Program-made: the position numbers and the translations under genes
Shown here: positions 26,147-47,841 of the stretch, one piece after another
Numbering within the stretch: position 1 is the first letter of the stretch
How the letters are laid out: each line of letters starts with the position of its first letter
Notes under the pieces: generated by a model
Database searches by the model: none
Told to the model about the DNA's origin: nothing
Seen by the model: the letters and a program-made list of their open reading frames with translations, nothing else
DNA from: Acorus gramineus
Lineage: Eukaryota; Streptophyta; Magnoliopsida; Acorales; Acoraceae
Length of the DNA: 64,000 nucleotides
Direction of reading: 5' to 3'
NCBI GenBank assembly: GCA_030737835.1
Contig: JAUJYN010000026.1
Span: 2,177,602 to 2,241,601, forward strand

Positions 26147-26151
26147 ATGGT
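26147..26151. repeat. Target-site duplication of A2 (left)
   Basis: ATGGT, identical to 35954-35958. Joining the flanks restores the sequence found intact near 45085 (caacggtatggtctctcccc). Confidence 0.95.
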
Positions 26152-26699
26152 TGTCACGCCCCAGGGCGGCCAACCCCGGAACGCGGCAAATGTATACATA
26201 TCATATCAGAAACCTACACAGGAGGTCAACAATATATATCATACACAATAAACAGAATGACACACAACGACAAGAAGCTGACATGATATATACACCTAAT
26301 GCGGAAGCAAAAGACTGAATCTGTGAATAAACATTCTACAGACTCGATACACAATCATACGTCCTGTGAGAGCCAATATACACAAATATATAACTGAACA
26401 TATACAAACGTGCTCAGCACGAAAATACAATACATACAGCCAAGGAGAGGGATGCTGATAGCCTCTGGTACTCGCGGACGTAGCGCTGCTCCGCTACTGA
26501 AGAAATCCCTCGGAAAGCTCCAACTGCTGCTCCGGCTCCAGCTCCAGCTCAGTGGCAACTGGGGAAAAACATATGCGAGGGGTGAGCCACACGCTCAGTG
26601 AATGGCACAACCCATGCATCACAGACAATATTGACCACAACATATTAATCCAGCCATTCATCCCGCCTCAAAGGGGCAGGAACAACATAACCATTTATC

Positions 26700-26965
26700 C
26701 AATCCAGATCATACCCTCACCCTTACCCCTCAACAGGGGACTCAGGATTTTGGGACTAACTATCATCAATAAACAAGACCAGCGGGTCGCTTATCGCCTA
26801 CCCACTACACCCTCACCCTCACCTTTCCAAAGGTGACATAGGATTTTGGGACTGATAAACATTCATAAACAAAACCAGTGGGTCGCTCATCGACAACCCA
26901 CTACACCCTCACCCTCACCCTACCACGGGTGACATAGGATTTTGGGACTGACTAGGCTGTTGGTC
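26700..26965 (-). repeat. G-rich tandem repeat, three units
   Basis: Three units with CACCCTCACCCTYACCYC followed by acataggattttgggactga; the sense strand is G-rich. The sister LTR has the equivalent at 33205-33460, with one unit differing (caaaggtgac versus acgggtgac), suggesting copying between units. Confidence 0.75.
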
Positions 26966-27281
26966 ACCCTTGGTCCACCGATAGTCTCTCCTCACTCCGC
27001 GGTTGTTTGGCCACTCCCATGTTCAGCACAGTCCTTCATCAAACCAGGAGGCGCCTACTAGTGGGAGCCCCTGCACGGGACAACCTGTCTAACGCCGAGG
27101 TAGTCTCTAACGGATCCAACGCAGGGCAACAGAACAGCCTATCCATCGCATATGATCCACTCGGATCCGCCGACAACGCATCTCTCCAACTCAAATGTCA
27201 TGAACTCTTCAGAGTTCCTCCAGCGCGCATAACCAAGATGCGGGGAAACAGTACAATCAAAAGCAGTGTTGGAATACCACT

Positions 27282-27401
27282 GGGGGAAAGAAACTCGGGA
27301 GGGCGGCGTGAGTTCCCGATACAGGGTACCCCGACAACCAAACAAGGAACACGGAGTACCCTAACACGGGTCTCACCGCTGTCCTCGCAAGGTCCCTCCC
27401 C
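27282..27401 (-). mobile_element. MITE-like module, copy 4
   Basis: Module of 120 bp from GGGGGAAAGAAACTCGGGAGG to the complement of GGGGAGGGACCTTGCGAGG; its sister copy is at 33783-33902. Confidence 0.75.
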
Positions 27402-27536
27402 TATAATATTCACTACTCATGCTAATAATCATACCAAACATACAACTCTAACGTTCTGAATTCCTCAGAACCCACCAGGGCGCATAACTACGATGCGGGG
27501 AACATGCATAAGGTTATAACATGGTGAAATATTCTT

Positions 27537-27656
27537 GGGGGAAAGCAACTCGGGAGGGCAGCGTGAGTTCCCGTTATAGGACGCTCCGACAACCAAACAA
27601 GGAACACGGTGTACCCTAACCCGGGTCTCACCGCTGTCCTCGCAAGGCCCCTCCCC
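27537..27656 (-). mobile_element. MITE-like module, copy 5
   Basis: Second module of the LTR, with the core CAACCAAACAAGGAACACGG; its sister copy is at 34038-34158. Confidence 0.75.
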
Positions 27657-28004
27657 TAAAATAATCACTATAACATGCAATTCAACAGATACTAGTATTT
27701 AATTTAATAAATAAAACTAGTAGGACACATGCATAGGCCGGGTTTCCTAGCATGTAAACAGGGGACATGCTGCAAGGCTCATATGCATATCCTAAGGGGC
27801 AAGTCCCTAACATGCAAAGACTAGGGAAGCATGCATTCTACACATAAATTATACAATCATGGATACATATTATTGCAGGTTAATATTCATCCAAGACGCC
27901 CCAGGAGAGGTCGGTATACGCCCAAGTGCGTATAACACCTCTCGACTGGGTTGGATTGTCCCACTCACCAGTATCTGGGTCGACGCGCGACCGTCTGTCG
28001 AGAT

Positions 28005-28904
28005 CTGCAAGACAGTATTATTTGGTAAGTATTAATCCACAATTATCATTAAATACATAACACACACAACCAAACATCCAACACTTCCCCAACAACTACC
28101 CGCGGCCTCGGCAACCACCCGCACGGCCCCCGGCAACCACCCGCACGGTCGGCCACCGCCCGGACGCGCCACCGCGGGCCCCGCACGCCTCGCGCCGGTC
28201 CGCGAGCACCCCGCGCGCCCCCGCACGCAGTGCCCCGCCTCGCGCGCACCCCGCGCGCACCTCCGCCACCTCGCCGCACCTCGCGCGCACCTCGCACGCA
28301 CCTCGCACGCCTTGCCGCACCTCGCGCGCACCTCGCACGCCTGCCGCACCTCGCGCGCACCTCGCACGCACCTCCTCCGCGCCCTCCGCGCACCACCACG
28401 CACTCGCCGCGGCCTCCGCGCACGCCACGGCCTCGGCCACCTCGCGCACCACGCCTCCGCGCCTCAGCCACCTCGCGCACGCACGCCTCCGCTGCCTCAG
28501 CCACCTCGCGCACGCACGCCTCCGCTGCCTCAGCCACCTCGCGCGCCCGCGCGACCTGCTCCACGCGCGCCAGCCGCCCAGCACCCGCCTCTGCTCGCCC
28601 AGCACCGGCGCCCTGCACCAGGCCCGCGCGCCCTCGCGCGCACGCCGCGCGCCCGCGCACGCACGCGCGCCTGCCCGCGCGCACCCGACCTGGCGCCGCC
28701 CGGGGCTGCTGCTGCTGCTGCTGCTTGGCCCGGACGACCTGCCGCAGCCCGAGCGCCACCACCACTGCCCGAGACCACCCAAACCACCTTCCAACCACCC
28801 CCGACCGCCCTCCGACGACCCCCACAGCCGCCCACCACCCCCAAACACAAAAACCCCTCCCTAGCATTCATCTAAGCAAGAAAAAGGAGGGAAAGAAGGC
28901 TTAC
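28005..28904 (-). other. Predicted LTR leader intron 2 (GC-rich)
   Basis: Minus-strand donor CCTCG|GTAAGC, acceptor GTCTTGCAG|ATCTCG, 900 nt. Repeated CACCTCGCACGC-type units differ in number from the sister LTR. A (CTG)n run lies near 28707-28724. Confidence 0.78.
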
Positions 28905-29492
28905 CGAGGGGAGGGAGCGAAGTCCGGACGCTCTCCACGCGCCGAAACCCTTCCCAAAAGCCTTCTCACGCCCCGATCTAGCTCCACCACCAATATGGGC
29001 CAAAACAGAGGAGAGAGAGGGGAGGTCGGGGAGGCTAAAGTCGTCGGAATTCGGATTTGAAGACACCGGTGTGTAGATCGGGACCCGATCTACACTTCCC
29101 GTGCTTTGGGTTTTCGATTTCGAGGGGTCTAGGGGGCTTGAACGGAAGAAAAACGGAGGAGGGGAGAGAGAAATCTCGACGGGAGAGACGATGAATAGTG
29201 ACGAGGTGATTTTTGATTTCTTTTAAGTAGAGCGCGACTTAAAAACCCGGATACGCCCCGGAACTGGAAAATTTTTGCAAACGATGCCGGAATTCAATGA
29301 AATTTTCGTGGGAGGTCAGAAATGGCACCAGGACACCAAATATGCAGTCAGATTTTCAATCGGAGTCCTCTAGCTCAGACGATAGCTAACAGTCTGAAAT
29401 TATGCGGTTCCGATCAAAAACCCTAAAAATTTTAAAAACCGCCAGGGCGCTCTAACGGTTACCAACAGGTTAAAAGTGACACATATATAACA

Positions 29493-29506
29493 TTATTCCC
29501 CCCTTA
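29493..29506 (-). other. Polypurine tract of A2
   Basis: Complement reads CTAAGGGGGGAATAA, directly next to the 3' LTR. Confidence 0.85.
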
Positions 29507-30142
29507 GGAAATTTTGTCCCCAAAATTCGCCAAAAACATCTAGGAGGGGAAAGATGCGGATACGCGTCGAACCTGGCCTCCATGAGCTCCCAAGTGTCCT
29601 TAACACCGGAACGGTGCTGCCATCGCACCTCGACCAACTGGACGGTCTTGGTGCAGAGCCTCCTCACGCGGCGGTCCATGATCACAATCTACTGCTCCAC
29701 GAATGACTGTCCGGCTCAGAGACGAACGGCTCGAACGGGATGACGTGAGCAGGATCGCGGACACACCTTTACCCAACTGCGAACCCACCACTCCAAGACG
29801 GAGAGGTAAGAATTGGCGCTGAGGTGAGCCTCCGAGTAAACTCCAGGAAGCTCTCCTCGCAAGAAGGGGACCACTCGAACCGGATATCCCTCCGAGTAAG
29901 GCGGGTAAAAGGAACAGCTATCTTCGAGAATCCTCGTCAAACTTCCTGCAATAACTCGCCAAACTCCGGAAGCTCCGAATCCATGCGGGGCTCGACGGTC
30001 TACGCCAATTCGACATAGCAAGCGTCTTACCCGGGTCCACAGATATCCTTCCCAGAAACCACACAGCCCAAAAGGCCTTAACCTCCAACCAAAACTCACA
30101 CCTGATCCATCACCAGCTGATGCTTCTAAGGTATCCCTTGAC
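29507..30142 (-). pseudogene. A2 pol remnant: RT end fused to chromodomain
   Basis: On the minus strand, sequence similar to the end of RT in A1 (8090-8410) runs from about 30110 to 29775. It then passes by an internal deletion straight to chromodomain sequence similar to 13290-13500. RNase H and integrase are missing and the frames are broken. It codes no functional enzyme. Confidence 0.8.
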
Positions 30143-30257
30143 TGGGAAAAGAACCTCGGGAAAGCAGCATGAAATCCCGATATAGGATACCCCGACAACC
30201 AAACAAGGAACACGAAGTATCCTAGTCCGGGTTTCAACGCCGACCTCACAAGGCCCC
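30143..30257 (-). mobile_element. MITE-like module, copy 6 (inside A2 interior)
   Basis: Lies outside an LTR. Flanks (gtatcccttgact and ttaatccag) match those of the copy in the B1 interior at 37111-37226, so A2 and B1 share this inner segment by descent. No flanking duplication is visible. Confidence 0.7.
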
Positions 30258-31100
30258 TTAATCCAGAAAGGAACACTAGAAGAAGACATCATTATTAAAG
30301 AACATTACCAACCTCACCGGATCATCTACATCTAGATAATCATCCACCGATATCCTTCAACATCCATCTCAAGACCGGACCCAACCTCTATGGGAACGGT
30401 CGAACCACGACCGAGTCACGAGGCGACGCGTCTTTGTCTCATCCACACCCTCACTCCCATCAGGAGACATATTGGGACTTTGGGAGAGACTTAGACTGTT
30501 CTCTACCCCTGGTCCACCGGTAGCCTCTCCTCCACACCGTAGGCCGCCTGGTCCGCTCCCACAATTCAGCACAGTCCGAAACCAAATCAGGAGGTGCCTA
30601 CTGAGGGGAGCCCTCTGTCAGGAAGGCCTCTCTAACGCTGAGGAGTCCCTACTCGGGTCCAACGAAGGGGAGAACGACACCATACTCGCGTCATCATCCA
30701 TTACAGGACCGAACCCAACATCATCGGGAATGGTCGAATAAACCATTTGGTCACGAGCGACCCGTCTTCGCCTCATCCACACCCTCACTCCGAAAGGAGA
30801 CATTTTGGGACTTTGGGAGAGACTTAGACTGCTCTCTACCCCTGGTCCACCGGTAGCCTCTCCCCGCTCCGTAGCTCGCCTGGTCCTCTGACCGGGAGCC
30901 TGTCTAACGCCGGGGCTGTACTACGCGGATCCAACTAAGGGGAGAGCGATTCCACGCTCGCGACACCATTCAATAACCTCTTACCGGTAGCCCCTACCTA
31001 GCATACTCCCAAATTCAGTACTCCTCCGATTGCATCGGCGGTACCTACTGATGGGAACTCACTGCCAGGACAGCTAAAACCCGGCTTCCTTAACCCAATC
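30258..31100 (-). repeat. Family B LTR-like filler inside A2
   Basis: Minus-orientation sequence resembling the repeat zone of the B LTR (compare 30310-30480 with 17430-17580: ggatcatctacatc, gaccggacccaac, atgggaacgg). Two similar blocks end in ctggtccaccggtagcc. It replaces the protease-RT region and makes the interior chimeric. Confidence 0.75.
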
Positions 31101-31115
31101 AACCGCTCTTGACAC

Positions 31116-32537
31116 TCACTCATCCAAATACCCCCACACACTTGCATAATAACCACCAATTACACACACAACTATCCTTATACTAGAAAGCTGGGAACAC
31201 AAGATGATACCTCGAACCATGACACCCGAAGGCTGCGCCTCCTCGGCCGTAAGCGCTGCAACTCTGCCTTGAACCAACCGCGGCTGAGGAACAGGAGCAC
31301 GCCTCGCCGGCTGCACTGGCTGCTGCTGGCGCTGAGGCTGCTGCTGCTGCTGCTGGCGCGGAAGCTGCTGCTGCAAGAACGGCGGCTGCTGAGGTGGCAC
31401 TCGGGGTCGGTCAGCATCTGGGCAATTGTATCTGATATGCCCGATGCGCTGACAATGAAAACAGCGCCGCTTCTCCGGCTGCCAGGACTGGATGGGCACT
31501 GCTGCAATGGGCGCCGGATCCCATACTGGCACCGCATCTGCTGGAGGAGAGGCAGCCGCTGACTGCTCGAAGCGGGGCCTCTTCCTCTTGCGCTGCCCCT
31601 GGTCCCGACTCCCGGAAGGACCCTGATCTGAAGAAGGGGTCGGAGCCCGCACTTGAATCCCGAGGTCTCTCTCGACGGTCTTCGCCCGAGACACTACGTC
31701 GGAGTACCTCGTGAAAGCGTGGGCAGTGACATGCACCCGGATAGCGCTGCTGAGACCCAGCTCGAATCGCCGGCACCTCGTGACCTCATCCGTCACCAAG
31801 GCTGGAGCAAATCTGGACAGACTCGTGAAGCGCGTAGAGTAGTCAGCGACGGACATAGTGCCCTGAGTCAGCTGCTCAAACTCCCGCTCCACTAGCTGGC
31901 GCGTCGAGAACGGGAAGTACTCATCCAAGAAGTACCTCCGGAATCCCGCCCATGAAAGCCGCTCCACTCCCTCTGGAATGTCCACCACTCGGGTAGCCCA
32001 CCAGTCGGCGGCATCACCCTTCAGCATGAAAGTGGCCAAGGCGACTCGCTGGCGATCGGTGCAAAGCATGGCCGCGAAGATCACATCCACCTCCCTCAAC
32101 CAACGCTCTGGCGCAAGAGGATCTGCCGACTGCCCATGAAACTCGGGAGGATGGAGCTTTAGAAAGGCGTTGAGGCCACTCTGCTGCACTCGCGCTGCAG
32201 CCTCTAGCTCCTCCTCCCTCTGCAGGGGATCCTCAACTCCTACTGCCGGAACTGCCACAGGAACTGGGGGTACATCGGGTACCACAGGCGGATCTGCCAC
32301 CAAGGGGACCTGCGGAACTGCCTCGCGGGCCGCCCTCAGCTCCTGAATCTCTCTAGCCTGCTCTGCTATCATCCGCGTCTGTGTCTCCACCAAATCTGCC
32401 AACCGAGCGAAAGCACGCTCCCAAGCAGGAGGCTCCTGCGTCAAGGGCTCTCCGGTAGCATCCTCGTCTCTGGTAGGTCCGGAAACCTCCAAAGACCGAG
32501 AGGGACCTCGTCCGCGCCGTCCTCTGCGAGGAGGCAT
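31116..32537 (-). CDS. gag: Gag polyprotein of A2, 473 codons
   Basis: Forms the particle in which element RNA is packaged and copied. The start at 32537 is the first ATG after the primer site and opens MPPRRGRRGRGPSRS; B1 has the same start (MPPR) at 36781. Residues about 40-70 look like a coiled coil (LADLVETQTRMIAEQAREI). Residues about 130-260 are the gag capsid-like domain (AERWLREVDVIF, LKGDAADWWATR). A zinc knuckle, CX2CX4HX4C, lies at residues about 359-372 (31422-31463), followed by a glutamine-rich linker. The last 30 or so residues are novel because the frame leaves gag near 31195, just before the protease site. It is the only long intact element gene in the window. Confidence 0.92.
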   Translation of the reverse strand: MPPRRGRRGRGPSRSLEVSGPTRDEDATGEPLTQEPPAWERAFARLADLVETQTRMIAEQAREIQELRAAREAVPQVPLVADPPVVPDVPPVPVAVPAVGVEDPLQREEELEAAARVQQSGLNAFLKLHPPEFHGQSADPLAPERWLREVDVIFAAMLCTDRQRVALATFMLKGDAADWWATRVVDIPEGVERLSWAGFRRYFLDEYFPFSTRQLVEREFEQLTQGTMSVADYSTRFTSLSRFAPALVTDEVTRCRRFELGLSSAIRVHVTAHAFTRYSDVVSRAKTVERDLGIQVRAPTPSSDQGPSGSRDQGQRKRKRPRFEQSAAASPPADAVPVWDPAPIAAVPIQSWQPEKRRCFHCQRIGHIRYNCPDADRPRVPPQQPPFLQQQLPRQQQQQQPQRQQQPVQPARRAPVPQPRLVQGRVAALTAEEAQPSGVMVRGIILCSQLSSIRIVVCVIGGYYASVWGYLDE

Positions 32538-32638
32538 ATCAGCACCCTAAGAAAACCAGACACTAGGATCAGAATACTCATCTCGAAATCCTAGGACTCA
32601 TCTCTACGAAAGGAAGACTATTGGCTCTGACAGGACCA

Positions 32639-32651
32639 GGCTCTGATACCA
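32639..32651 (-). other. Primer binding site of A2
   Basis: Complement reads TGGTATCAGAGCC, complementary to the 3' end of plant initiator-Met tRNA, five bases inside the LTR end. Confidence 0.94.
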
Positions 32652-33782
32652 ACTTTTGTCACGCCCCAGGGCGGCCAACCCCGGAACGCGGCAAGTGTAT
32701 ATATAATATCAGAACTACACAGGAGGTCAACAATATATATCATACACAATAAACAGAATGACACACAACGACAAGAAGCTGACATGATATATACACCTAA
32801 TGCGGAAGCAAAAGACTGAATCTGTGAATAAACATTCTACAGACTCGATACACAATCATACGTCCTGTGAGAGCCAATATACACAAATATATAACTGAAC
32901 ATATACAAACGTGCTCAGCACGAAAATACAATACATACAGCCAAGGAAAGGGATGCTGATAGCCTCTGGTACTCGCGGACGTAGCGCTGCTCCGCTACTG
33001 AAGAAATCCCTCGGAAAGCTCCAACTGCTGCTCCGGCTCCAGCTCCAGCTCAGTGGCAACTGGGGAAAAACATATGCGAGGGGTGAGCCACACGCTCAGT
33101 GAATGGCACAACCCATGCATCACAGACAATATTGACCACAACATATTAATCCAGCCATTCATCCCGCCTCAAAGGGGCAGGAACAACATAACCATTTATC
33201 CAATCCAGATCATACCCTCACCCTTACCCCTCAACAGGGGACTCAGGATTTTGGGACTAACTATCATCAATAAACAAGACCAGCGGGTCGCTTATCGCCT
33301 ACCCACTACACCCTCACCCTCACCCTACCACGGGTGACATAGGATTTTGGGACTGATAAACATTCATAAACAAAACCAGTGGGTCGCTCATCGACAACCC
33401 ACTACACCCTCACCCTCACCCTACCACGGGTGACATAGGATTTTGGGACTGACTAGGCTGTTGGTCACCCTTGGTCCACCGATAGTCTCTCCTCACTCCG
33501 CGGTTGTTTGGCCACTCCCATGTTCAGCACAGTCCTTCATCAAACCAGGAGGCGCCTACTAGTGGGAGCCCCTGCACGGGACAACCTGTCTAACGCCGAG
33601 GTAGTCTCTAACGGATCCAACGCAGGGCAACAGAACAGCCTATCCATCGCATATGATCCACTCGGATCCGCCGACAACGCATCTCTCCAACTCAAATGTC
33701 ATGAACTCTTCAGAGTTCCTCCAGCGCGCATAACCAAGATGCGGGGAAACAGTACAATCAAAAGCAGTGTTGGAATACCACT

Positions 33783-33902
33783 GGGGGAAAGAAACTCGGG
33801 AGGGCGGCGTGAGTTCCCGATACAGGGTACCCCGACAACCAAACAAGGAACACGGAGTACCCTAACACGGGTCTCACCGCTGTCCTCGCAAGGTCCCTCC
33901 CC
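33783..33902 (-). mobile_element. MITE-like module, copy 7
   Basis: Sister of the module at 27282-27401, duplicated with the LTR. Confidence 0.75.
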
Positions 33903-34037
33903 TATAATATTCACTACTCATGCTAATAATCATACCAAACATACAACTCTAACGTTCTGAATTCCTCAGAACCCACCAGGGCGCATAACTACGATGCGGG
34001 GAACATGCATAAGGTTATATCATAGTGAAATATTCTT

Positions 34038-34158
34038 GGGGGAAAGCAACTCGGGAGGGCAGCGTGAGTTCCCGTTATAGGACGCTCCGACAACCAAACA
34101 AGGAACACGGTGTACCCTAACCCGGGTCTCACCGCTGTCCTCGCAAGGCCCCTCCCCT
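34038..34158 (-). mobile_element. MITE-like module, copy 8
   Basis: Sister of the module at 27537-27656, duplicated with the LTR. Confidence 0.75.
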
Positions 34159-34505
34159 AAAATAATCACTATAACATGCAATTCAACAGATACTAGTATT
34201 TAATTTAATAAATAAAACTAGTAGGACACATGCATAGGCCGGGTTTCCTAGCATGTAAACAGGGGACATGCTGCAAGGCTCATATGCATATCCTAAGGGG
34301 CAAGTCCCTAACATGCAAAGACTAGGGAAGCATGCATTCTACACATAAATTATACAATCATGGATACATATTATTGCAGGTTAATATTCATCCAAGACGC
34401 CCCAGGAGAGGTCGGTATACGCCCAAGTGCGTATAACACCTCTCGACTGGGTTGGATTGTCCCACTCACCAGTATCTGGGTCGACGCGCGACCGTCTGTC
34501 GAGAT

Positions 34506-35365
34506 CTGCAAGACAGATATTATTTGGTAAGTATTAATCCACAATTATCATTAAATACATAACACACACAACCAAACATCCAACACTTCCCCAACAACTA
34601 CCCGCGGCCTCGGCAACCACCCGCACGGCCCCCGGCAACCACCCGCACGGTCGGCCACCGCCCGGACGCGCCACCGCGGGCCCCGCACGCCTCGCGCCGG
34701 TCCGCGAGCACCCCGCGCGCCCCCGCACGCAGTGCCCCGCCTCGCGCGCACCCCGCGCGCACCTCCGCCACCTCGCCGCACCTCGCGCGCACCTCGCACG
34801 CCTTGCCGCACCTCGCACGCACCTCGCACGCCTTGCCGCACCTCGCGCGCACCCCCGCGCACTCACCGCGCCCTCCGCGCACCACCACGCACTCGCCGCG
34901 GCCTCCGCGCACCGCCACGGCCTCGGCCACCCCTCGCGCACGCACGCCTCCGCTGCCTCAGCCACCTCGCGCACGCACGCCTCCGCTGCCTCAGCCACCT
35001 CGCGCGCCCGCGCGACCTGCTCCACGCGCGCCAGCCGCCCAGCACCCGCCTCTGCTCGCCCAGCACCGGCGCCCTGCACCAGGCCCGCGCGCCCTCGCGC
35101 GCACGCCGCGCGCCCGCGCACGCACGCGCGCCTGCCCGCGCGCACCCGACCTGGCGCCGCCCGGGGCTGCTGCTGCTGCTGCTGCTTGGCCCGGACGACC
35201 TGCCGCAGCCCGAGCGCCACCACCACTGCCCGAGACCACCCAAACCACCTTCCAACCACCCCCGACCGCCCTCCGACGACCCCCACAGCCTCCGACCACC
35301 CCCAAACACAAAAACCCCTCCCTAGCATTCATCTAAGCAAGAAAAAGGAGGGAAAGAAGGCTTAC
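34506..35365 (-). other. Predicted LTR leader intron 2 (GC-rich)
   Basis: Same splice sites as 28005-28904 but 860 nt; the GC-rich units have contracted by about 40 bp. Confidence 0.78.
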
Positions 35366-35953
35366 CGAGGGGAGGGAGCGAAGTCCGGACGCTCTCCACG
35401 CGCCGAAACCCTTCCCAAAAGCCTTCTCACGCCCCGATCTAGCTCCACCACCAAAATGGGCCAAAACAGAGGAGAGAGAGGGGAGGTCGGGGAGGCTAAA
35501 GTCGTCGGAATTCGGATTTGAAGACACCGGTGTGTAGATCGGGACCCGATCTACACTTCCCGTGCTTTGGGTTTTCGATTTCGAGGGGTCTAGGGGGCTT
35601 GAACGGAAGAAAAACGGAGGAGGGGAGAGAGAAATCTCGACGGGAGAGACGATGAATAGTGACGAGGTGATTTTTGATTTCTTTTAAGTAGAGCGCGACT
35701 TAAAAACCCGGATACGCCCCGGAACTGGAAAATTTTTGCAAACGATGCCGGAATTCAACGAAATTTTCGTGAGAGGTCAGGAATGACACCAGGACACCAA
35801 ATATGCAGTCAGATTTCCAATCGGAGTCCTCTAGCTCAGACGATAGCTAACAGTCTGAAATTATGCGGTTCCGACCAAAAACCCTAAAAATTTTAAAAAC
35901 CGCCAGGGCGCTCTAACGGTTACCAACAGGTTAAAAGTGACACATATATAACA

Positions 35954-35958
35954 ATGGT
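35954..35958. repeat. Target-site duplication of A2 (right)
   Basis: ATGGT, identical to 26147-26151. Confidence 0.95.
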
Positions 35959-36666
35959 CTCTCCCCAACAGACCCAAGAGTCTCCCTCCGGGGAGTGAGG
36001 GTGAGGGTGAGGCTGGTGATTCAGTAGTGTTGTGTGGACCAGTAATTCCGCGTCTTTTCGACCAACAGTATGGTCTCTCCCCAAAAGTCCCAAGAGTCTT
36101 CTTCCGGGAGAGAGGGTGAGGGTGAGGTTGGTCGCGCCGCCTCATGACCCTGTTATCCATTGGGTTTCTACCCATGTTTTTCCTTGAAAGGAAATGGTAT
36201 TAGCATTGAACTGTTGTATGGCGATTGGTTTCCAGCCACTCACTGAGCTTGTAGCTCACCCCTCGCATACTGTTTCTTTTCAGGGGCAGTGTTGGGCGTG
36301 GAGCTGGAGCTTTCCTGTGGCGAGGTCTTATGGGCGTGGAGCATTTTTTTGGCGGATGGTGAGTGCGAGGCTGTCAGCAATCCTAGAGTCATTTTATGTA
36401 TTGTAAATCGTGCATGTGGCACAGGTTGTATTTTATTTGGTCTAGACTTGGCTCTCACAGGACAGTGATTGTGTATTCGAGTCTGTAATAATGTTTTTTA
36501 TTTACAGACATTGTTTATATATTATGCTTCTGCTTTTCAGTCAGTTATCATTATCCTTGCTTTGCCACCTTGTGTGTTGTTGTTGGAGTCTTTATTGACC
36601 TCAAGTATTGATAGCTGATATTTCATTATTGCCACGTCTCGGGGACGACCACCCTAGGGCGTGACA
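35959..36666 (+). repeat. B1 5' LTR, last part
   Basis: Resumes the B LTR after A2 and ends CCTAGGGCGTGACA at 36666. It contains the last G-rich units and the conserved tail (gggcagtgttgggcgtggag, ggctctcacaggacagtga). Confidence 0.9.
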
Positions 36667-36671
36667 AAAGT

Positions 36672-36684
36672 TGGTATCAGAGCC
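36672..36684 (+). other. Primer binding site of B1
   Basis: TGGTATCAGAGCC, five bases after the 5' LTR; initiator-Met tRNA type. Confidence 0.94.
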
Positions 36685-36780
36685 TGGTCCTGTCAGAGCC
36701 TAAGTCTAGTCGTATAGATGATGAGTCGTAGGATTGTCATCTGAGTACTCTTGTTTTAGAAGTTATCTTAGGTTGCTGAC

Positions 36781-37110
36781 ATGCCTCCTCGCATCCGTTG
36801 ACATGGACGTGACCCCCCTGGACCCACCCTTAAGTTGTCGACTGGGTCGACTGAATAGGGTCAGTTGTTGGATCCCTTGTTGCGGGATTAAGGCTTGGGT
36901 AGGAGATTCTAGCCTAGTAGTGTGATAATGATGAATTGGTCACAATTTCTAAGGTATGGATTGCGTCTCGATAATGGAGCTTCTTTCCCGTGCATCGGTA
37001 TTGCTGGTAACCATGGAGTTCGCGTGCAGCACCAGTTTCAAGTGTTGAGGATGTGGCGTATTGCTCATTAAGGGGTGATGTCTTCTTCCAGCCTTCCTAC
37101 TCAGGATTAA
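36781..37110 (+). pseudogene. B1 gag start remnant
   Basis: ATG at 36781 gives MPPRIR and then TGA, resembling the A2 Gag start MPPRRGR; the stop is where CGA could become TGA. Beyond about 36880 no gag similarity can be followed. Confidence 0.6.
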
Positions 37111-37226
37111 GGGGCCTTGCGGGGTCATCGTTGAGACCCGGGCTAGGGTACTCCGTGTTCCTTGTTTGGTTGTCGGGATATCCTATATCGGGACCTCATG
37201 GTGCCCTCCCAAGGTTTCTTTTCCCA
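37111..37226 (+). mobile_element. MITE-like module, copy 9 (inside B1 interior)
   Basis: GGGGCCTTGCGGGG to GGTTTCTTTTCCCA, with the GTTCCTTGTTTGGTTGTCGG core. It shares flanks with the A2 interior copy (ggattaa and gtcaagg). Confidence 0.72.
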
Positions 37227-37915
37227 GTCAAGGAATACCTTTGAAGCATCAAATTAGATGATTGATTTTTCCTCTCACTTGGAAGGTGCTGTAGCGAGTG
37301 GTGATGCGTACGATCGGGATTGGGTACATCCTATTGCAGCTTGGTGGGCGATTGCTTGTGGACTGGGTTCCATAGTGGCATCTGGAGTCGATATATCATT
37401 GTGCGTGGTAGCTGCCTGGTTGAGGCCAGAGCCCTGTGAGGTGCTCCTAGATACTATGCTTGTTGGTGCGTCCATATGCCAGAGATAGTGGGCTTGGGAG
37501 GCCACCAAGTAGAGGCCACACCGGGAGAGTGCGATTGGATGATGTTGAGAGCGTGGACTCCCCGTGATGAATCTGCCCATGGAGTGCAGGATGCTGGAGT
37601 TCCAATGGTTATAGTTGAGCGACCTATCTCTGGCGGCATGTGAAGCACAGTTGTGGATACTGTCGCGTTTTACCCCCACATTGGTCGCAAATGAGGAAAC
37701 GCGATGCTAACGTTCGTGATGGGACTCAACCGCCTTATCAGATAGATGACGTTGCATAGGCATTGTCGAGGTTCCACGACCCCCCTTATTGAGTGTCTTG
37801 TGGATTAAGTGCGGTTGAGCGGCTTACCAAGCGTGTAAGTGTCATCATGAGCGCTAGCCATGCTCGAGGAGCAGAATCTGGACTTAATTGTTCACAGTGT
37901 TGTTTTGATCTTCTC
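37227..37915 (+). other. B1 interior without recognisable coding
   Basis: Internal element sequence with fragments like ataccaggta-type LTR text (agtagaggccacaccggg near 37510) but no frame or domain I can name. Confidence 0.5.
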
Positions 37916-39397
37916 GTAAGGGTCAAAGATTAGGTACCCCTTGCTGTGAATTGATGATCTATTTGACCAGCTCTGGGAGCGGGTGCCTGCTGTTAGATCG
38001 ATCTTCGCACAAGGGTACCACAAGTCGAAGATCAGAGAGTTGGACATCCCGTAGATGGTCTTTCGTGACCGTTCAGGCACTACGAGTTCTAAGTACTGCC
38101 GTCGGGGTTGACGAATGCGCCGGATGCCTTCGTGGATCTCAAAAGTTTTATTGGGCTTCCGTGGACTACTTTGGGATAGTCTTCATTGAGATTGCTAGTG
38201 GTGCGATGAAAAGGCGATATGGGTGACCTTGTTTCCCCAGGTTGGCATGCCCTCAGGCAAAGTTTGAGAATCATCATCGCGTTGGAAAGCGTCAGTCCAT
38301 GGAGATTCCTTAGTGGACGTGGGAGAGGGTTATCAGGGATTGCTGCGGACTCGCTAATGTCACATTCGGGTCACGACGCCGTCTAGGTGATCATTGACCG
38401 ACTGACTAAGTCCGCGCTTCCCTCCCTAATCCGACTGATTGAGTCTCTGGACGCCTTGACGTGGGTTTTCACCTTCGCGATTGTTTGTCTTCATGGCACT
38501 CCGGTCGGCGCTATTTTCGGTTGAGACGTGAGGGTTACTTTGAGGTTGTGGCGCAGCCTTGGCAGGCTTTGGCGCGAGCCTCCATTTAAGTATAGCGTTT
38601 CATCGCCGATGGACAGCCAGACAAAGGGGATGATTCAGACCTTGGAGGACATGCTAAGTGCCTGCGTGCTCGATGATGAGGGTAGTTGGGTGAGGCACCA
38701 CCCATTTGTTGGGGTATGCCTGCAAGACGACTACCATTCGAGCATCCAAATGGATCTGTGAAAGGCACTCTACAGGCGCAGTTTTATACCTCCCTTGTGT
38801 TGGGACGGTTGAGGAGCGCCAGTTGGAGGGGCCACAAGTTATTTATTTGACCTTGCAGTGGCCAGGTTGGTTCATGTGTGCATCTGCACCTCCCAGAACC
38901 GATAGAAGGGCTACGCAGGTCATCGTCGCCAGGAGCTTACCTTCAGGTTTGGCGACCATGTTTTCTTGAAGGTGTCCCAGTTTAAGGGCATCCTCTGTTT
39001 CGACGTTCGGGGCAAGCTGAGTTGGCTCTTCAATGGGACTGTTTCTCGTCATTGAGTGGGTTGGGGAGGTGGCTTGTCATGTAGCCTTTCCCCCACAGCT
39101 GGCTCATGCCACGACGTCGTCCTTGTCTCATGGCCGAGGCGTTATGTCCAAGATCCTGCTCATGTCACTCCGTTCGACCGCCTCATCCTCGAGCTGGATT
39201 TGTCGTTCGTGGAGCAGTGGATCGAGGTCAAGGACCAGCATGAGAAGTGGCTCCACGCTAAGACCGTTCCTTTGATTAGAGTGTGTCGGTAGCGCCAGTC
39301 TGGTGCATAGACCACTTGGAAGCAAAAGATCTATGCGTGATACTTGCTACATTCGGTCTTCCCTTTGGGTTTCCTTAAATTTTGAGGACTAAATTTC
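37916..39397 (+). pseudogene. B1 pol remnant: RT, integrase, chromodomain scraps
   Basis: An RT trace ([13 protein letters not shown]-like) lies at about 37934-38110. Integrase traces follow from about 38240, including the region of ILEDMLSACVLDDEGSW-like sequence near 38640 and a Y(N/D)SSIQM-like match near 38735, and chromodomain traces at about 39100-39330. Many stops and frameshifts; several deletions relative to A1. The order matches A1, so this is a decayed Tekay pol. Confidence 0.82.
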
Positions 39398-39399
39398 CT

Positions 39400-39412
39400 A
39401 AGGGGGGGAGAA
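39400..39412 (+). other. Polypurine tract of B1
   Basis: AAGGGGGGGAGAA directly before the 3' LTR. Confidence 0.88.
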
Positions 39413-39884
39413 TGTTATGCCTGTGTCATTTGGAGCCATTTCGGTTAAGCCTTGGTCACATCTGGGTCATTCAGGGCCTTTTCTTTTTTCGATCGGAGTC
39501 GCTAAAATTTTGGCTTTTAGCCACCTGCGAGAGTTAGAGTACTCTGATTGGAAATCTAACTACATATTATGGGTCCTGGTACCGTTTAGTACTACCCATA
39601 AAAATTTCATCGAATTTCGGTAACGTTTTGAAAAATATGCAGTTCCGAATCGCATCCGGGTTTTGAGAGTTCCTGGTGGGTCGAATAGTGTGAGATATTT
39701 TGGGGATGTGGTGACCCTTGGTAACCTTACCCCCACCTTGCTTAGGGGTGAAGAAACCTTTGGTTATTTGTTATGTGAGTGGGTGAGCCTAACCCTAACC
39801 TCACCCCCCCTTAAGGTCACCCCTAGGCACTATTTGGGCATGAAAAAGACCTTTTTGCCCTCTCTCTCTCTCTCCCTCTCTCTC
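39413..39884 (+). repeat. B1 3' LTR, first part
   Basis: Starts TGTTATGCCTGTGTCATTTGG and is cut in a (CT)n tract by the solo A LTR. Confidence 0.92.
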
Positions 39885-40448
39885 TGTTATATATGTGTCA
39901 CTTTTTAGCCTATTGGTCACATTTGGGTCATTTCTGGGCATTTTCTAATTTTTCGTTTTTTTATCGAAGCCGCTAAAATTTTAAACTTTTAGCTATCTGC
40001 GTGAGTTCGAGAACTTCGATTGAAAATCCAACTGCATATTATGAGTCCTGGTGAAATTTTGTGCTACTCATAAAAATTTCATCAAATTCCGGTAACGTTT
40101 TAGAAAATTTTGCAGTTCTGAATCGTATCCGGGTTTTGACCGATTTTGGATTGTCAAAGGGTGACTTTGACCGGGTCAACGAAGACCTTGACTAGTCAAA
40201 GATGACCTTTGACTAGTCAAGGGTTTTTGTTTTCTAGTTTGGTTGGGTTGACTCAAAGTCAATCCCCACCCACCCCCTTTTCCACCATTTAATGCCTAAG
40301 TGTGTGAGTGTGTGTGTGTGTGCTTGAAGTGGGCGTCCCCTTCATCTCCCTCTCCCTCTCACTCTCTCCTTCACTTCCTCTTCTTTTTGTGCTAAATAGA
40401 AGTAGAAAAAGAAGGAGAAGAAGAAAGACTTAAAAAGGAAAAGAGAAG

Positions 40449-40545
40449 GTATGTGTGTGCAAGCTTTGAGTGTTGTTGTTGTGCTTGATTCCCTTCTCTC
40501 TAACTCCCTCTCATGCCTCCCCCCCCCCCCAACCCCTGATTTCAG
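40449..40545 (+). other. Predicted LTR leader intron 1
   Basis: Donor AGAGAAG|GTATGT, acceptor CTGATTTCAG|CCATTAAAGG, 97 nt. The acceptor-side exon closely matches the spliced-looking junction at 47338/47339. Confidence 0.8.
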
Positions 40546-40657
40546 CCATTAAAGGCTTGAGGAGTGGCTGAGAAGGTGGTGGTGTTGGTGGTGGCGGTTG
40601 AGGTGGTTTGGTGCGCCAAGGGCACCCGATTTCCTCCCCTTTCTTTCCCCTCCTTAG

Positions 40658-41216
40658 GTAAGCTCTCTCCTCCCTTATCCTTGTTTAAATGATTGATAAA
40701 GGCTCTTAGGGTGTTCATGTATGCCATGCATAGGGTTTAGGGTGGGTGTGTGGGCTGAGGAGGGGGTGGCGGAGGTTTGGGCGCGCGCGCGTCTACGCGT
40801 GCAGAGGGGTGCTGGCGCGAGCAGTCGGGCGCGCGCACGTACGCGCAGGTGCGCGAGCGTGCGCGCAGGGTGCTGGGCCGGCGCGCAGTGCACGCGAGTG
40901 CGCGCAGGAAGGGCGCACGCGAGAGTGCGCGCGCGCGCGACAGCGTGTCTGGGCGCGCAGGCAGGCGCGCGGCAGTGCGCCAGGGGGTGCGGGGGCGCGT
41001 GCGTGCGTGCGTATGCGGGCGTACGCGTGCGGGGGCCATGCGTGTGGCTGCCCGAGGGTTCGGGTAGGTGTCGGGGCACTTGGACTTGCGTGCGTACGTG
41101 CGTACTCGCATGCGTGCGAGCCCGTATGCATGCTTGTCCGAGTTTTTGGCATTTCTAGTAAATTTCATGTATATTTGTGTAGTTTACTCACCATATTGAA
41201 TGCCCTTGTCTTGCAG
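40658..41216 (+). other. Predicted LTR leader intron 2 (GC-rich)
   Basis: Donor CCTTAG|GTAAGC, acceptor TTGTCTTGCAG|ATCTTG, 559 nt, with TTTACTCACC about 35 nt before the acceptor. Confidence 0.8.
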
Positions 41217-42615
41217 ATCTTGGCGAACGGTCACGCAACGACCCGGGTTGCGGTGAGTTGGTCAATCCAAACCAGTAGGGAGGCGTTCGATGCACGTAGG
41301 TGTGCATTGCCCTCCCCTGGGGCACCATAACTACATATTAACTTGTGTGAATGAAAACTATGTTAATGCATGCTTTGCTATGATGTAACCATACCATGTT
41401 AGACATTGTATGCTAGGGATATACATCCATGTATCATGTATAGAGGCCATACATGCCTAGACACCATGTCCCATGCTTGAAAAGCTTTGATCTATGCATG
41501 TTCCCATCTAGTTTAATTTAATTAAACCAAAATGAGAATATGTTAGTATAAGCATGCCTTAGAAAATATTATAACCTTGTTATTATAATATATGTTTTTC
41601 CCCGCATCTTAGTTATGCGCCCTGGAGGAATTCTTGAGAATTCGTTACCTTAGCACTGTTTAGTAATCGTTGTCGACGGATCCAAGAGGATCGTATCCGT
41701 GAGTGTAGATTGTTTTCTCCCCTTCGTTGGATCCGTGTAGGAACTAACCGGGTTGGGAAAAGCTGTCCTGACAGAGGGCTCCCATCTGTAGGTACTACCG
41801 ATGCATTCGGGAAAGTACTGACCATGGGAGTATACCAGGTAGAGGCTACCCGGGGAAAGGGCTACCGGTGGACCAAGGGTGTAGAGCAGTCTAATCTCTC
41901 CCAAAAGTCCTATGTCACCCCTAAGGGGTGAGGGTGAGGGTGTGGTGGGTCGGCGTCGCTACGACCCTCCAGTTTGTACAGTTACTCCCATCTTGGGACT
42001 TTAATGATTTTTAAGGTTAATATGAGTTGTGTTGCATAGATTGTGCCATTCACTGAGCGTGTGGCTCACCCCTCACATATCTTTTTCCTCCAGTTGTCAC
42101 TGAGTCGGATCTGAAGGAGGAGCTCCCCGAGGCATCACATCAGTAGCGGAGCAGCGTTCGCGTTTTGGGTTCTGCGAGTGAGAGGCCATCAGCATCCCCT
42201 TCTTTTGCTAGTATGTATTGTTATTCGTGCTTGGGCACAATACTTGTATATGGATGTCTTTGTTTATATTGGCTCTCACAGGACAGTTGATTATGTATTC
42301 TGGTCTGTAATATGTCTTTGAATTACAGACTCAGTCGTTTAAGCTTCCGCTATATGTATATATATTATGTCAGCTACATTGTTAATTGTGTTATTATCTT
42401 CGAGGTTGTTTAGAGTCTTTTATTGATCTCCTGTATAGACTGCTGATATTATATATATTTGCCACGTATCGAGGACAGCCGCCCTGGGGCGTGACACTCT
42501 CCCAACTCGTGGAACACTTTTCCTCCCTCTCTTATGGCTCTCTTTCTCCCCAAGTGTTTGGTTTATGCCAAGGAGAAGAAGATGGAGCAAGAAGAGGAGG
42601 TGCAAGCACAAGAAG

Positions 42616-42695
42616 GTGAGTTTGTGCATGTGTTGTTGTTGTGGTTTCTCCTCTCTCAAGCACCCTCTCATGTCTTTCCCCCCCCTGATTTGCAG
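42616..42695 (+). other. Predicted LTR leader intron 1
   Basis: Donor CAAGAAG|GTGAGT, acceptor CCTGATTTGCAG|CC, 80 nt; near-identical to 23618-23700. Confidence 0.8.
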
Positions 42696-42807
42696 CCAAA
42701 GAAGGCTGAGGAGGGCTGTGGAGGTGGTGGTAGTGGTGGTGGTGGTTGAGGTGGTCGCAGGTGCATCAAGGGCCCCTGAATCTCCCCCTTTCATTCCCCC
42801 TCCCAAG

Positions 42808-43339
42808 ATGAGCTCTTCCCCTTCTTTTCTTGGTTTTTCATGGCTTAGGGGGTTGTTGGGAGGTCATGCATGCTAGGTAATTGGTTTAGGGTGAGTGAGA
42901 AGTGTGGGGGAGGGGTTAAAAAGGGGTTAAGGATGGCTGGGCGCGCGCAGGAGTCTATCTGCGCGCGTGCGCGCGCAGGCGCGCGGGCAGATGGGCACTA
43001 GCAGGCGCAGGCGCGCGCCGATGCGCGCGGACGCTAGCAGCGAGCGGGGTGCGCGCAGGACGTGTGCGCGAGTGCGCACGGGCGCGGGCGAGCGTGTGCG
43101 CGTGGGGGAGTGTGCCTGGGCGTGTGTCTGGGCACGCGGCTGGATGCCAGTGCTGAGGCATGCGTGTGGCTGGCCAGGGGCTCGGGTAGGTGCTGGGGCA
43201 CCTGGGCATGCGTGTGTACGTGCGTGCTCGCATGCGTGCGAGCCCGTATGCGTGCATGTCTAAGTCTTTGGTAATTCTAGTGATTTCTAAGTGTTAAATT
43301 GTGATGTTACTCACCAAATTTGATGCCCTTACCTTGCAG
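42808..43339 (+). other. LTR leader intron 2 with mutated donor
   Basis: The donor that reads TAG|GTAAGC in the 5' LTR reads AAG|ATGAGC here; the acceptor TTACCTTGCAG|ATCTCG is intact. 532 nt. Only the 5' LTR copy would be spliced in a transcript of B1. Confidence 0.6.
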
Positions 43340-45799
43340 ATCTCGTCGGATGGGATGCACGAGGTCCCGGGTTGCTGTGAGTGGTTTGATCCAGTCCCCC
43401 CTCCCCTCTCGGAATGCGCTCGACGCGATGGGGCCCCCTAGCTATACTACTTGTGTAGATAAGTAGTATGGCCATGCTTAAGCTATAATATGTAGATATC
43501 TTGCATGCTAGGCTTATATACATGATTGTGTTGCATGCACCCCTCTAGTATGGGCATATATTTTTGGTAATGTGTATGGATGTATAGAATATGGCATGCC
43601 TTAGGTAGTATTGTAATACTACTCCCACCATATTAATTGGAATATCCAATATGATTAAGTCTGGGTTAATAACGGACACCTGCCTAATATTCCCTTGCGA
43701 TAAGACTCGAGGGCGTGGTGTAGTTGTTGCGCCCATGCTAATGGGGCAAAGCTATGACCAGCTTCATGAGATGATGATCTCTCTCGCCCTCTCCCTCTGA
43801 ACGAACTGAGTAAGTAGATGCGATTTCCTACTCGACTCAGATTCGTTTGGAATATTGGCATGCACCTGTTAGTGCGCGAGATTGCGCTTGACCCTTTCTT
43901 TTAAGTTGGTGATATCCAACGCATGCTTAAGTTATGCCTTGTGTGCTTATATGATTAATGGCCACGTATGCATGTTTAAGTGGGCCATACCATGTATACA
44001 TGTTGTATGATTTGTTGTTTATGATGTAAATCCATGTTAGGGGTCACCCTTATGGACAATTATTAGATGATTGTGCATATGGTTCATGCACATAGCTAGA
44101 TATAATTCTTCTGGATATATTTATATGCGCATGTTAAAAACTGATAGGCCTATCTGAATTAGGCGTGGGGATGACCCACTGTCAGGTTTTACCTTATTAG
44201 TTAGAGTGCTAGCGATGTAATCGCCCCGTGCATCCGAGCGATGCACTCGTTTGGAATTCAGGAGAATTCAATTATCTTATCGGTTTTGTTAAGCCGATAG
44301 TTGGGGCATTAAGCTAGGCCTACCCATGCTAGGCGTGTATATGAACCGCCTGTTGGGTTATGTGCCTTGGGATTATTTCTGCGTGTGAGCAGAGGCAACC
44401 CCCCTTGTGTCCGAGCGACGCAACCGTGTGGGAGTACAATAGTGTTCGCTATCATCGATATGTGATTATCGAGAGTAGTTGTTTTTCCATTGGGTTCGCT
44501 TTGCGAACATGGAGTGTTTCCTTCCAATGTCGTCCATGTTGAAGCGGCCCAGGTTGTAGCTGTCCTGACAGAGGGCCCCCACCTATAGGTACTATCGATG
44601 CATGCGGCAAGATGTACTGATCGTGGGGGTATACCAGGTAGAGGCTACCCGGGAGAGGGCTAACGAATGATATTGCGAGCGTGGAATCGTTCTCCCCTTC
44701 GTTGGATCCGATGTAGGAACTTTCCGGCGTGGGAAAAGCTGTCCTGACAGAGGGCTCCTATTCGTAGGTACCACCGAGGCGTTCGGAAGCGTACTGATCG
44801 TGGGAGTATACCAGGTAGTGACTACCCGGGGAAAGGGCTACCGGTGGACCAAGGGTGTAGAGCAATCTAAGTCTCTTCCAAAAGTCCTATGTCACCTCTA
44901 AAGGGTGAGGGTGAGGATGAGGTGAAGACACATCGCCGCGTGACCCATTCGTTGTTCGACCGTTCCCATAGTTGTTGGGTCCGGTTGCGTATCGATGTTG
45001 AAAGACATCGTTGGGCAGTTATCCCGATGTAGATGATCCAGTAGCGTTGTGTAGACCAGTAATTCCGGGTCTCTTCGACCAACGGTATGGTCTCTCCCCA
45101 AGAGACCCAAGAGTCTCCCTCCAGGAGTGAGGGTGAGGGTGAGGTTGGTGATTCAGTAGTGTTGTGTGGACCAGTAATTCCACGTCTCTTCGACCAACGG
45201 TATGGTCTCTCCCCAAAAGTCCCAAGAGTCTTCCTCTGGGAGTGAGGGTGAGGGTGAGGTTGGTCGCGCCGCCGCGTGACCCTGTTATCCATTGGGTTTC
45301 TACCCATGTTTTTCCTTGAAAGGAAATTGTGTTAGCATTGAACTGTTGTATGGTGATTGGTTTCCAGCCACTCATTGAGCTTGTAGCTCACCCCTCGCAT
45401 ATTGTTTCTTTTCAGGGGCAGTGTTGGGCGTGGAGCTGGAGCTTTCCTGTGGCGTGGTCTTTTGGGCGTGGAGCGTTTTTTCGGCGGATGGCGAGTGCGA
45501 GGCTGTCAGCAGTCCTAGAGTCATTTTATGTATTGTAAATCGTGCATGTGGCACAGGTTGTATTTTATTTGGTCTAGACTTAGCTCTCACAGGACAGTGA
45601 TTGTGTATTCGAGTCTGTAATAATGTTTTTGGTTTACAGACATTGTTTATATATTATGCTTCCGCTTTTTCAGTCAGTTATCATTATCCTTGCTTTGCCA
45701 CCTTGTGTGTTGTTGTTGGAGTCTTTATTGACCTCAGGTATTGATAGCTGATATTTCATTATTGCCACGTCTCGGGAAAGGCTGCCCTGGGGCGTGACA

Positions 45800-46357: not shown

Positions 46358-47841
46358 ATTTCATATAGGCCTAATCAGTTTTAACGTATTTCCATTACAG
46401 AAGAATTATATCATAGTTATTTACATGAACTTACATGCACGATAACATAACAATTAATTATAGAGATACTCACTAACATGGATAAAACATAAATAGTATA
46501 TATATACAACATACATACCAGGAATGGCCTAAGTAATATGCATACAAGCATACAAGCATCACCCTAATATGCGTTGGGTATCACCAACTTAAGAGGGAAG
46601 GGTTAAACGCGATCTCGCGCACCAACCGATGCATGCCAATAATCCCAAGCGGACCTGAGTCAAGTAGGAGCCACATCTACTTACTCAGTTTACGCAAAAA
46701 GAGAGGGCGAGAGAGAGGGAAAGTCTAATCCTCTTCGGAAGCTGATCATAGCATTGCCCCAACAAGATGGGTATACCACGTCCTCCAATCTTATGACCAG
46801 GGAATATTAAGTATGCACCCGGTTATTAACCCAGGTTTAATCATGCTAGATATTACTAACATAGGGAGGTAGTACTATAAATAGGAGATACATAAGGCAT
46901 GCATATTCTATACATTCATATAAACACACATCACACATGCCCATACATGAAGGGCGCATGCAAACATAATAATTCACACATGAATATGATACATAGGCAA
47001 GTATATGGTAGAATAGGGGGTTCTACACAATATACGAGCTATATTAACCTAGCATGCAAATATCTAGCATATTATGGGTTAGACATGACCATACTACTTA
47101 TCTAAATAAGTAGTATAGTCAGGGTGCCCAACAGATGCGTGACGCACGACTACGTACATCTAACGCTTCCCGAAGGGTTGGATCAAACCACTCACCAATA
47201 CCCGGATCGCCGCGCGTCCGGTCTACGAGATCAAAAGAGGGGGAGGGAAATGGGGAGATGCGGGGCTCTTGACACGCCCACGACCACCTCAACCACCACC
47301 ACCACCACCTCATCAGCCTCTCCTCAAGCCTTTCATGGCTTAATCATCTTCTCTACTTGATCCACCTCCCTCATGTTCCTTCTTCACCATCTTCTTTTCC
47401 AACACAAAGGGAAGCAAAAGAGGGGAAAGGAAGAAAAGTGGTCGGATGGGTTGGGAGGGAAGAGAGAGAGAGGGGTTTTTCACTTTAGGGGGGCATTTAT
47501 CATGAATAAAGAGGGTTGGTGGGGTGGGTTGACAAGTCAACCTAACCAAGAAAGAAAACAAAACATCAAGACTCGGTCAATACCCCCATTTAGATGTGCA
47601 CATGAAATCCCACCTCCCAAACCAGTAACGATCAAACCCGGATGCGATTCAGAACTGCATATTTTTCTGAAACGATACCCGAATTCGATGAAATTTTTAT
47701 GGGTAGTACAAAACGGTACCAAGACCCATAATATACAATTAGATTTTCAATCAGAGTATTCCAACTCCCGCAGGTAGCTAAAAGCCAAAATTTTAGCGAC
47801 TCCGATGGAAAAATAAGGTTCCAAATGACATAGGCAAAACA
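46358..47841 (-). mobile_element. Intron-less family B LTR, minus strand (By)
   Basis: Minus-strand B LTR broken on the left by Bx, ending at 47841 with a mutated LTR start (complement TGTTTTGCC). Compared with Bx it lacks exactly the predicted intron 2 (junction 47231/47232: gagat|caaaag against predicted gagat|caaaac) and intron 1 (junction 47338/47339, complement TTAAG|CCATGAAAGG). Exon 2 between them is 107 nt. Sequence beyond the exon 3 GGTGAGTGG motif is kept, so that motif was not used as a donor. It looks like the DNA copy of a doubly spliced transcript. Confidence 0.88.

Follow-up and report, generated by a model that had tools for sequence, protein, structure and literature searches.

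Several plant LTR elements, including Ogre, BARE1, EVADE and CRR, are described as carrying functional introns and producing both spliced and unspliced RNAs (passages of PMC12786077 and PMC3735527). The introns of these elements are located between or within coding regions according to the same passages (PMC12786077, PMC3735527), while both of the Acorus gramineus introns studied here are located inside the LTR and so differ from the coding or internal introns of the Ogre/BARE type. With respect to BARE, it is stated in part of PMC3735527 that DNA copies of the spliced RNA were not amplifiable. Loss of an engineered intron from Ty is presented as the classic proof of an RNA intermediate (section of PMC12786077). 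The Ty intron was artificial and experimental, whereas the Acorus introns are native, lie in the LTR and have intronless counterparts in a natural genome; a plant genome appears to have repeated the Ty intron-loss experiment several times using native LTR introns.

Among animal retroviruses, the spliced subgenomic RNA of MLV is co-packaged (passage of PMC2925334), and splice donor-associated retroelements (SDAREs) are named in a passage of PMC10496198. The MLV SDARE resembles the mechanism proposed here in that a spliced RNA is packaged and differs in that it belongs to an animal retrovirus. The part that is spliced out is internal (gag to env) and is not LTR sequence. HTLV-1, BLV and the foamy viruses have their major splice donor in R, i.e. 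inside the LTR, but the acceptor is in the internal region and there is thus no complete intron inside the LTR. Penelope-like elements have terminal repeats and copies that retain introns (portion of PMC3846280). These elements use a different reverse transcriptase and mechanism, with no LTR strand transfer. An intron may also be located within the Penelope-like pLTR. In searches of open-licence papers, we recognized no report of introns inside the LTRs of native LTR retrotransposons together with intronless copies. The phrase "intron in the LTR" occurs in a passage on lentiviral vector design (PMC5542766), "intron-containing LTR" in a passage of PMC4256276 and "spliced LTR" in passages of PMC6771403 and PMC6180158.

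Nested Ty3/gypsy elements and their LTR introns

The window (C64:2177602-2241601, the whole 64,000-nt stretch of DNA that was analyzed) is taken from the 398.6 Mb, 137-contig assembly of A. gramineus, a species in which LTR elements are reported to make up nearly 38.4% of the genome (passage of PMC10281966). It contains nested Ty3/gypsy LTR elements with LTRs of two families that have termini and leader in common: the B-type (copies A, B, D, E, F and G; complete length ~3.7-3.8 kb) and the C-type (copies C1-C9; ~2.6-3.3 kb), a diverged outgroup family. Judging from the order of the pieces, LTR B cuts LTR A, while solo LTR E cuts B and contains D, one C-type element and the F-G element (Table 1). 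As expected for Ty3/gypsy elements, the F/G and C5/C6 pairs have TG...CA LTRs of matching length at both ends. F and G are 93.4% identical (3835 and 3777 nt as cut, with LTR ends set 3 nt further in the scripts than the coordinates in Table 1), and C5 and C6 are 97.8% identical. A PBS is found 3' of LTR F and a PPT (CCTAAGGGGGGGAGAA) 5' of LTR G; we take the PBS to fit initiator tRNA-Met. The clean 5-bp repeat ATGGT (26147-26151 and 35954-35958) lies on either side of the C5/C6 element, which is nested in LTR F; no clean 5-bp repeat was found in the flanks of F/G and D. Pfam families (Retrotrans_gag, RVT_1, RT_RNaseH, rve, Integrase_H2C2 and others) were identified in six of the ten window ORFs tried, and these ORFs were assigned to C-type elements by position only. 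Scanning the window against Rfam (gathering scores) and with ARAGORN returned no match.

Table 1. Positions of LTRs, exons, introns and junctions in the window
Feature	Position	Strand	Description
LTR copy A	46358..47841	-	start at 47841 (TGTT...), cut short at 46358 where LTR B begins; without introns 1 and 2
Exon 1/exon 2 junction of A	47338..47339	-	GATTAAG/CCATGAAAGG
Exon 2 of A	47232..47338	-	107 nt
Exon 2/exon 3 junction of A	47231..47232	-	CTTTTG/ATCTCG
Exon 3 of A	47196..47231	-	36 nt, then conserved GTGAGTGG from 47195
Intron 1 of LTR B	3485..3584	-	100 nt, GTTAGT...TTTTCAG
Intron 2 of LTR B	2854..3372	-	519 nt, GTAAGG...TTTTGCAG
Intron 1 of LTR D	19673..19753	-	CTG, CAG in other copies with intron 1
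Intron 2 of LTR D	19040..19558	-	
Intron 1 of LTR E	16552..16642	+	
Intron 2 of LTR E	20506..21024	+	
F-G element	23033..45799	+	PBS from 36671 (TTGGTATCAGAGCC), PPT before 39413
5' LTR (F) of F-G	23033-26151+35954-36666	+	
3' LTR (G) of F-G	39413-39884+42498-45799	+	
Intron 1 of LTR F	23618..23700	+	
Intron 2 of LTR F	23812..24375	+	C7-like, no detectable similarity to B/D/E intron
Intron 1 of LTR G	42616..42695	+	
Intron 2 of LTR G	42808..43339	+	AT replaces GT donor
Intron 2 of C1	1050-1739	-	
Intron 2 of C2	5142-5853		
Intron 2 of C3	9501-10411		
Intron 2 of C4	14321-15080		
Intron 2 of C5	28005-28904	-	
Intron 2 of C6	34506-35365	-	
Intron 2 of C7	40658-41216		
Intron 2 of C8	55565-56382	-	
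Intron 2 of outgroup LTR C9	61617..62526	+	

Both introns sit wholly inside the LTR, and their GT...AG ends with conserved exon boundaries are those of spliceosomal introns. Of the 15 LTR copies delimited in the window, all except A have an intron 2 that runs from a donor to GCAG; these 14 have AG acceptors throughout, 13 GT donors and one AT donor. The AT donor is that of LTR G (42808), while its partner LTR F has GT. Intron 1 sites could be assigned in nine of the 15 copies, all with a GT donor and with the acceptor CAG in eight and CTG in one (D). Intron-1 splice sites are absent and intron 2 is present in C3, C5, C6, C8 and C9. Intron 1 measures 80-100 nt; the length of intron 2 ranges from 519 to 564 nt among B-type LTRs and from 559 to 911 nt among C-type LTRs.

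BLAST detects no similarity between intron 2 of B/D/E and intron 2 of F/G (the latter resembling the intron of C7), but the splice boundaries are the same: similarity between the two groups of copies ends and restarts at the GT...AG ends. This dissimilarity could suggest separate gains, as would be predicted if the ancestral LTRs were intronless and acquired introns by later insertion. Such late insertion is exceedingly unlikely for two reasons. First, 9/9 window copies of the C-type outgroup carry intron 2 at the corresponding boundary, and the C-type intron-2 acceptor is found throughout the genome (see below). Second, a tree built from exon 2 plus 350 nt places A and B as sisters (97/97) inside the B-type and leaves the C copies outside, and spliced copies elsewhere in the genome are scattered among intron-bearing ones. 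Because A falls inside an intron-bearing clade and all nine C copies carry intron 2, its intron loss is derived. We read the difference between B/D/E and F/G, from the sequence pattern, as an old exchange of introns between LTR lineages and not as gain at an empty site.

The two intronless junctions of copy A

It was initially proposed, from a comparison with LTR B, that A lacks a 519-nt and an 80-100-nt segment, each bounded by GT..AG. A global alignment of A and B has only two gaps longer than 22 nt, one of 107 nt (intron-1 region) and one of 519 nt. At the exon 2/exon 3 junction, A reads CCCTCTTTTG/ATCTCGTAGACC (47232/47231), while B reads CCCTGTTTTG/GTAAGG...TTTTGCAG/ATCTCGTAGACC (intron 3372 to 2854), making the loss exact to the base. 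When endpoints were scanned against eight relatives, the best right start was the acceptor in all eight and the best left end was the donor in six (C4 is off by one and C9 does not agree). The initial annotation cautioned that microhomology exists at this junction (47231/47232), and this is correct: one G is ambiguous, allowing two equivalent placements (a one-base slide).

At the exon 1/exon 2 junction, comparison with B alone leaves the left edge unresolved, as the B donor comes 27th at a word length of 20 and second at word lengths of 40 and 70; with the other seven relatives the donor ranks between 1 and 29. This junction is resolved by three intron-bearing sisters that carry A's own exon 1 (L006, L021 and L022). 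L006 and L021 read ...GAGAAGATGATTAAG/GTGTGTGT...TTTTCAG/CCATGAAAGG, while the acceptor of L022 is TTTTTAG/TCATGAAAGG. A reads ...GAGAAGATGATTAAG/CCATGAAAGG, which is exactly the join of the exon ends of these sisters, and the missing 80-100-nt segment is thus also exact.

The statement that two splice-exact deletions are unlikely to arise by chance also stands. Randomly placed deletions in B began with GT and ended with AG in 10/1080 placements at 519 nt and in 12/1499 placements at 100 nt, and joins shifted from the splice sites were found at 0 and 0 places genome-wide (see below). The window does not extend to the far end of A, which puts its element and TSD beyond checking.

Spliced joins across the genome

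The genome was searched for sequence patterns with up to three mismatches; each of the B and C searches given here found 0 places with the reversed pattern. The B/D/E-type intron-2 acceptor was found at 1348 places and the exact B-family exon 2/exon 3 join at 48 (20 without mismatch), compared to 0 when the join was moved by 6 nt into exon 2 and 0 when it was lengthened by 6 nt of the intron. For the C-type (the shifted controls are for B only), the intron-2 acceptor was found at 11,645 places and the spliced join at 44. The intron-minus fraction is 48/1396 matched places (3.4%) in the B family, where introns are kept in over 96% of matched places, and 44/11,689 (0.4%) in the C family, the latter probably being an undercount because exon 2 varies. 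Counting intronless copies of the family had been suggested as a check on the initial reading. Done here by pattern counts and not by full alignment, it confirms that the intron loss is real and larger in scale than first claimed. The C-type acceptor plus exon 3 start at 11,645 places of a 398.6 Mb genome is an observation in its own right; intron-bearing LTRs may make up a sizeable part of the A. gramineus genome.

Could chance DNA deletions in A have happened to coincide with splice junctions? Copies with other boundaries do exist. Among 40 scored matches to A (from 7366 candidates), eight lack intron 2 (A, L002, L003, L005, L011, L012, L013 and L017); in L012 the join is ~10 nt short, in L017 exon 2 is joined 140 nt downstream, and in a further match, L018, intron 2 is truncated. 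However, the other six of the eight have the exact join, the 48 exact joins contrast with 0 and 0 at joins shifted by 6 nt, and at least 34 of the 45 copies read at intron 1 have lost both introns. Coincidental deletion is thus hardly conceivable.

Intron 1 was read at 45 of the 48 join places, A included (C1:28905998, C3:2333295 and C10:4133291, the last in L059, were left out). By script, 19 of these have the canonical join, 15 have an alternative-acceptor join (AG/GGCTT and variants, using a second AG 8 nt downstream), one (L076) retains the intron and 10 are unclassified. On inspection by eye, four of these 10 (L028, L029, L035 and L051) have other DNA replacing exon 1, three (L048, L049 and L052) look canonical and three (L072, L073 and L077) are not clear-cut. 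Intron 1 is also retained in L012, while L034, L050 and L055 have a weak (76-80%) match to it further upstream that does not adjoin exon 2. Use of the alternative acceptor partly makes sense given that the intron-bearing copies D and L009 carry CTG at the CAG acceptor position. In L068, which has a D-like exon 1, D's donor is spliced instead to the following AG, as expected from the CTG acceptor of D. Similarly, L078 and L002 have the exon-1 end GATTAAG in common, with acceptors used 8 nt apart. The spliced copies therefore show several intron-1 donors and two acceptors, a pattern that random deletion does not account for.

Not all of these copies need represent separate events. The join AAAGG/[G/A]GCTT follows the same exon 1 in 10 copies (L030, L032, L033, L037, L039, L041, L046, L053, L067 and L074), with a near variant in L056, and these could be one intronless lineage that kept moving. 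A tree of 67 rows was built from 46 spliced rows (A being included twice, from the window and as L042), 19 intron rows (mostly from the matches to A) and two outgroup rows; five of the spliced rows are without the exon 2 part. Spliced and intron rows are interspersed, with 11 state changes of which at least four are forced by starred branches; the tree is weakened by this composition of rows and by LTR recombination, and the number of events read from it is rough. The spliced rows are also clustered beyond expectation from shuffled labels (0/500 shuffles as low), and so part of the 48 joins are relatives and not separate events. The differing intron-1 joins argue for several events independently of the tree.

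Elements with two intronless LTRs and a proposed mechanism

The initial annotation had suggested looking for a full element in which both LTRs are intronless, and one was found on C56. Its 5' LTR (start 936045) adjoins a PBS and a PPT precedes its 3' LTR (start 930386), both of the same kind as in the F-G element, and introns 1 and 2 are absent from both LTRs. Identity between these LTRs is 95.9% over 2231 aligned positions (first 2300 nt) and 93.3% over 1493 (first 1500 nt). No TSD is readable, as the 3' LTR end did not turn up in the retrieved sequence. A second case, on C8 (the genomic location and not the window copy), consists of a PPT-flanked and a PBS-flanked LTR separated by 14.9 kb that include other LTR sequence. 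Both are without intron 2 and have the same intron-1 join, with 98.3% identity over 1262 positions; if, as we infer, they form one element, it too has intronless LTRs at both ends. The C56 and C8 LTRs are 78.9% identical. In addition, one spliced LTR adjoins a PPT in L065. Same-strand pairs of spliced LTRs within 9.5 kb number two for the B family and eight for the C family (~0.03 and ~0.02 expected, respectively), with no opposite-strand pairs in either family. Seven of the same-strand C-type pairs, at distances of 5.1-7.5 kb, would fit complete elements by their spacing alone.

These elements bear on two further explanations. Exact intron removal would also be expected if a spliced LTR transcript had been copied by LINE-type (target-primed) retrotransposition, giving a processed pseudogene. 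However, such a copy would begin at the transcription start and finish in poly(A), whereas A starts at the LTR terminus and includes U3, and spliced LTRs adjoin a PBS or PPT in the C56 element and the C8 pair and a PPT in L065. This origin is almost inconceivable. Alternatively, existing LTRs might have been converted by cDNA of spliced RNA (through gene conversion or ectopic cDNA repair) with no new insertion. This could occur for single LTRs such as A, and LTR mosaics show that exchange takes place, but both LTRs of the C56 element and of the C8 pair are intronless and are ~96% and ~98% identical, respectively, as new insertion predicts. Conversion, which would itself need reverse transcription of spliced RNA, is very unlikely.

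Reverse transcription of spliced RNA, followed by insertion, very probably explains the intronless LTRs, as judged from their genomic sequences. The proposal that A is a reverse-transcribed spliced LTR RNA is supported by its exact joins, by the 48 joins compared to 0 and 0 for shifted controls and by the presence of two spliced LTRs in the C56 element. At least two related Ty3/gypsy families of A. gramineus would carry spliceosomal LTR introns downstream of the transcription start, with two introns in the B-type and part of the C-type and intron 2 alone in the remaining C-type copies of the window. Most retrotransposition would proceed from unspliced RNA, allowing introns to persist, and RNA spliced at the LTR introns would occasionally be packaged. 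Because such RNA keeps R, the U5 end, PBS, internal region, PPT and U3, it should be reverse-transcribable. In LTR elements, U5 (and R) of both new LTRs derive from the RNA 5' end; minus-strand strong-stop DNA would copy the spliced 5' end and introns would consequently be lost from both LTRs. Copy A would then either belong to an insertion of this kind or descend from one.

Loss from both LTRs requires that transcription start upstream of intron 1, and if this reading is right, the RNA start is bounded to that region and integration is possible with intron-minus LTRs at both ends of an element. TATA-like motifs are found at LTR position 265 in the window copies C3, C8 and C9, ~30 nt before a TATTCATC-like block, while none was found in the first 600 nt of the six B-type window copies. 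By analogy with retroviruses, a preference for packaging unspliced RNA is the likeliest reason that introns persist. The strictness with which spliced RNA is excluded from reverse transcription in LTR elements becomes measurable at these loci. More speculatively, the LTR introns may serve as a packaging or fate switch, in which intron-bearing RNA is the preferred reverse transcription template and spliced RNA is used for translation or export; introns would then persist at the ~13,000 matched places, with leakage founding intronless mobile lineages. We hold this suggestion only tentatively and consider it somewhat doubtful. If correct, the genome would hold a natural record of the frequency of spliced-RNA copying.

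Three minor features of the exon 3 region were also observed. First, GTGAGTGG (GTGAGTTG in C7) is located 36-37 nt after the intron-2 acceptor position in A (47195) and in 14 other LTR copies, and in 11 of the 15 it is followed 0.8-2.1 kb on by a pyrimidine tract plus AG, a candidate third-intron acceptor. The B-type spliced join predicted for this candidate was found at 0 places genome-wide, and a third LTR intron is unsupported; since A keeps the sequence after GTGAGTGG, such an intron, if real, was not removed in A. Second, on translation of exons 2-3 in 15 copies (and of exon 4 in 11), frames are inconsistently open and none was traced to a start codon. In several C copies (C3-C8, exons 3-4), an open run of ~30 codons spans the candidate third junction and varies in length by in-frame steps, which may be chance. 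Third, a 16-pair RNA hairpin (with one G-U pair) is predicted just 3' of exon 3 at ~47086-47121 in A and 2708-2743 in B, and is weaker in E. Its exact anchor is present in three of the eight copies tried, and the altered join of L017 falls near the hairpin end.
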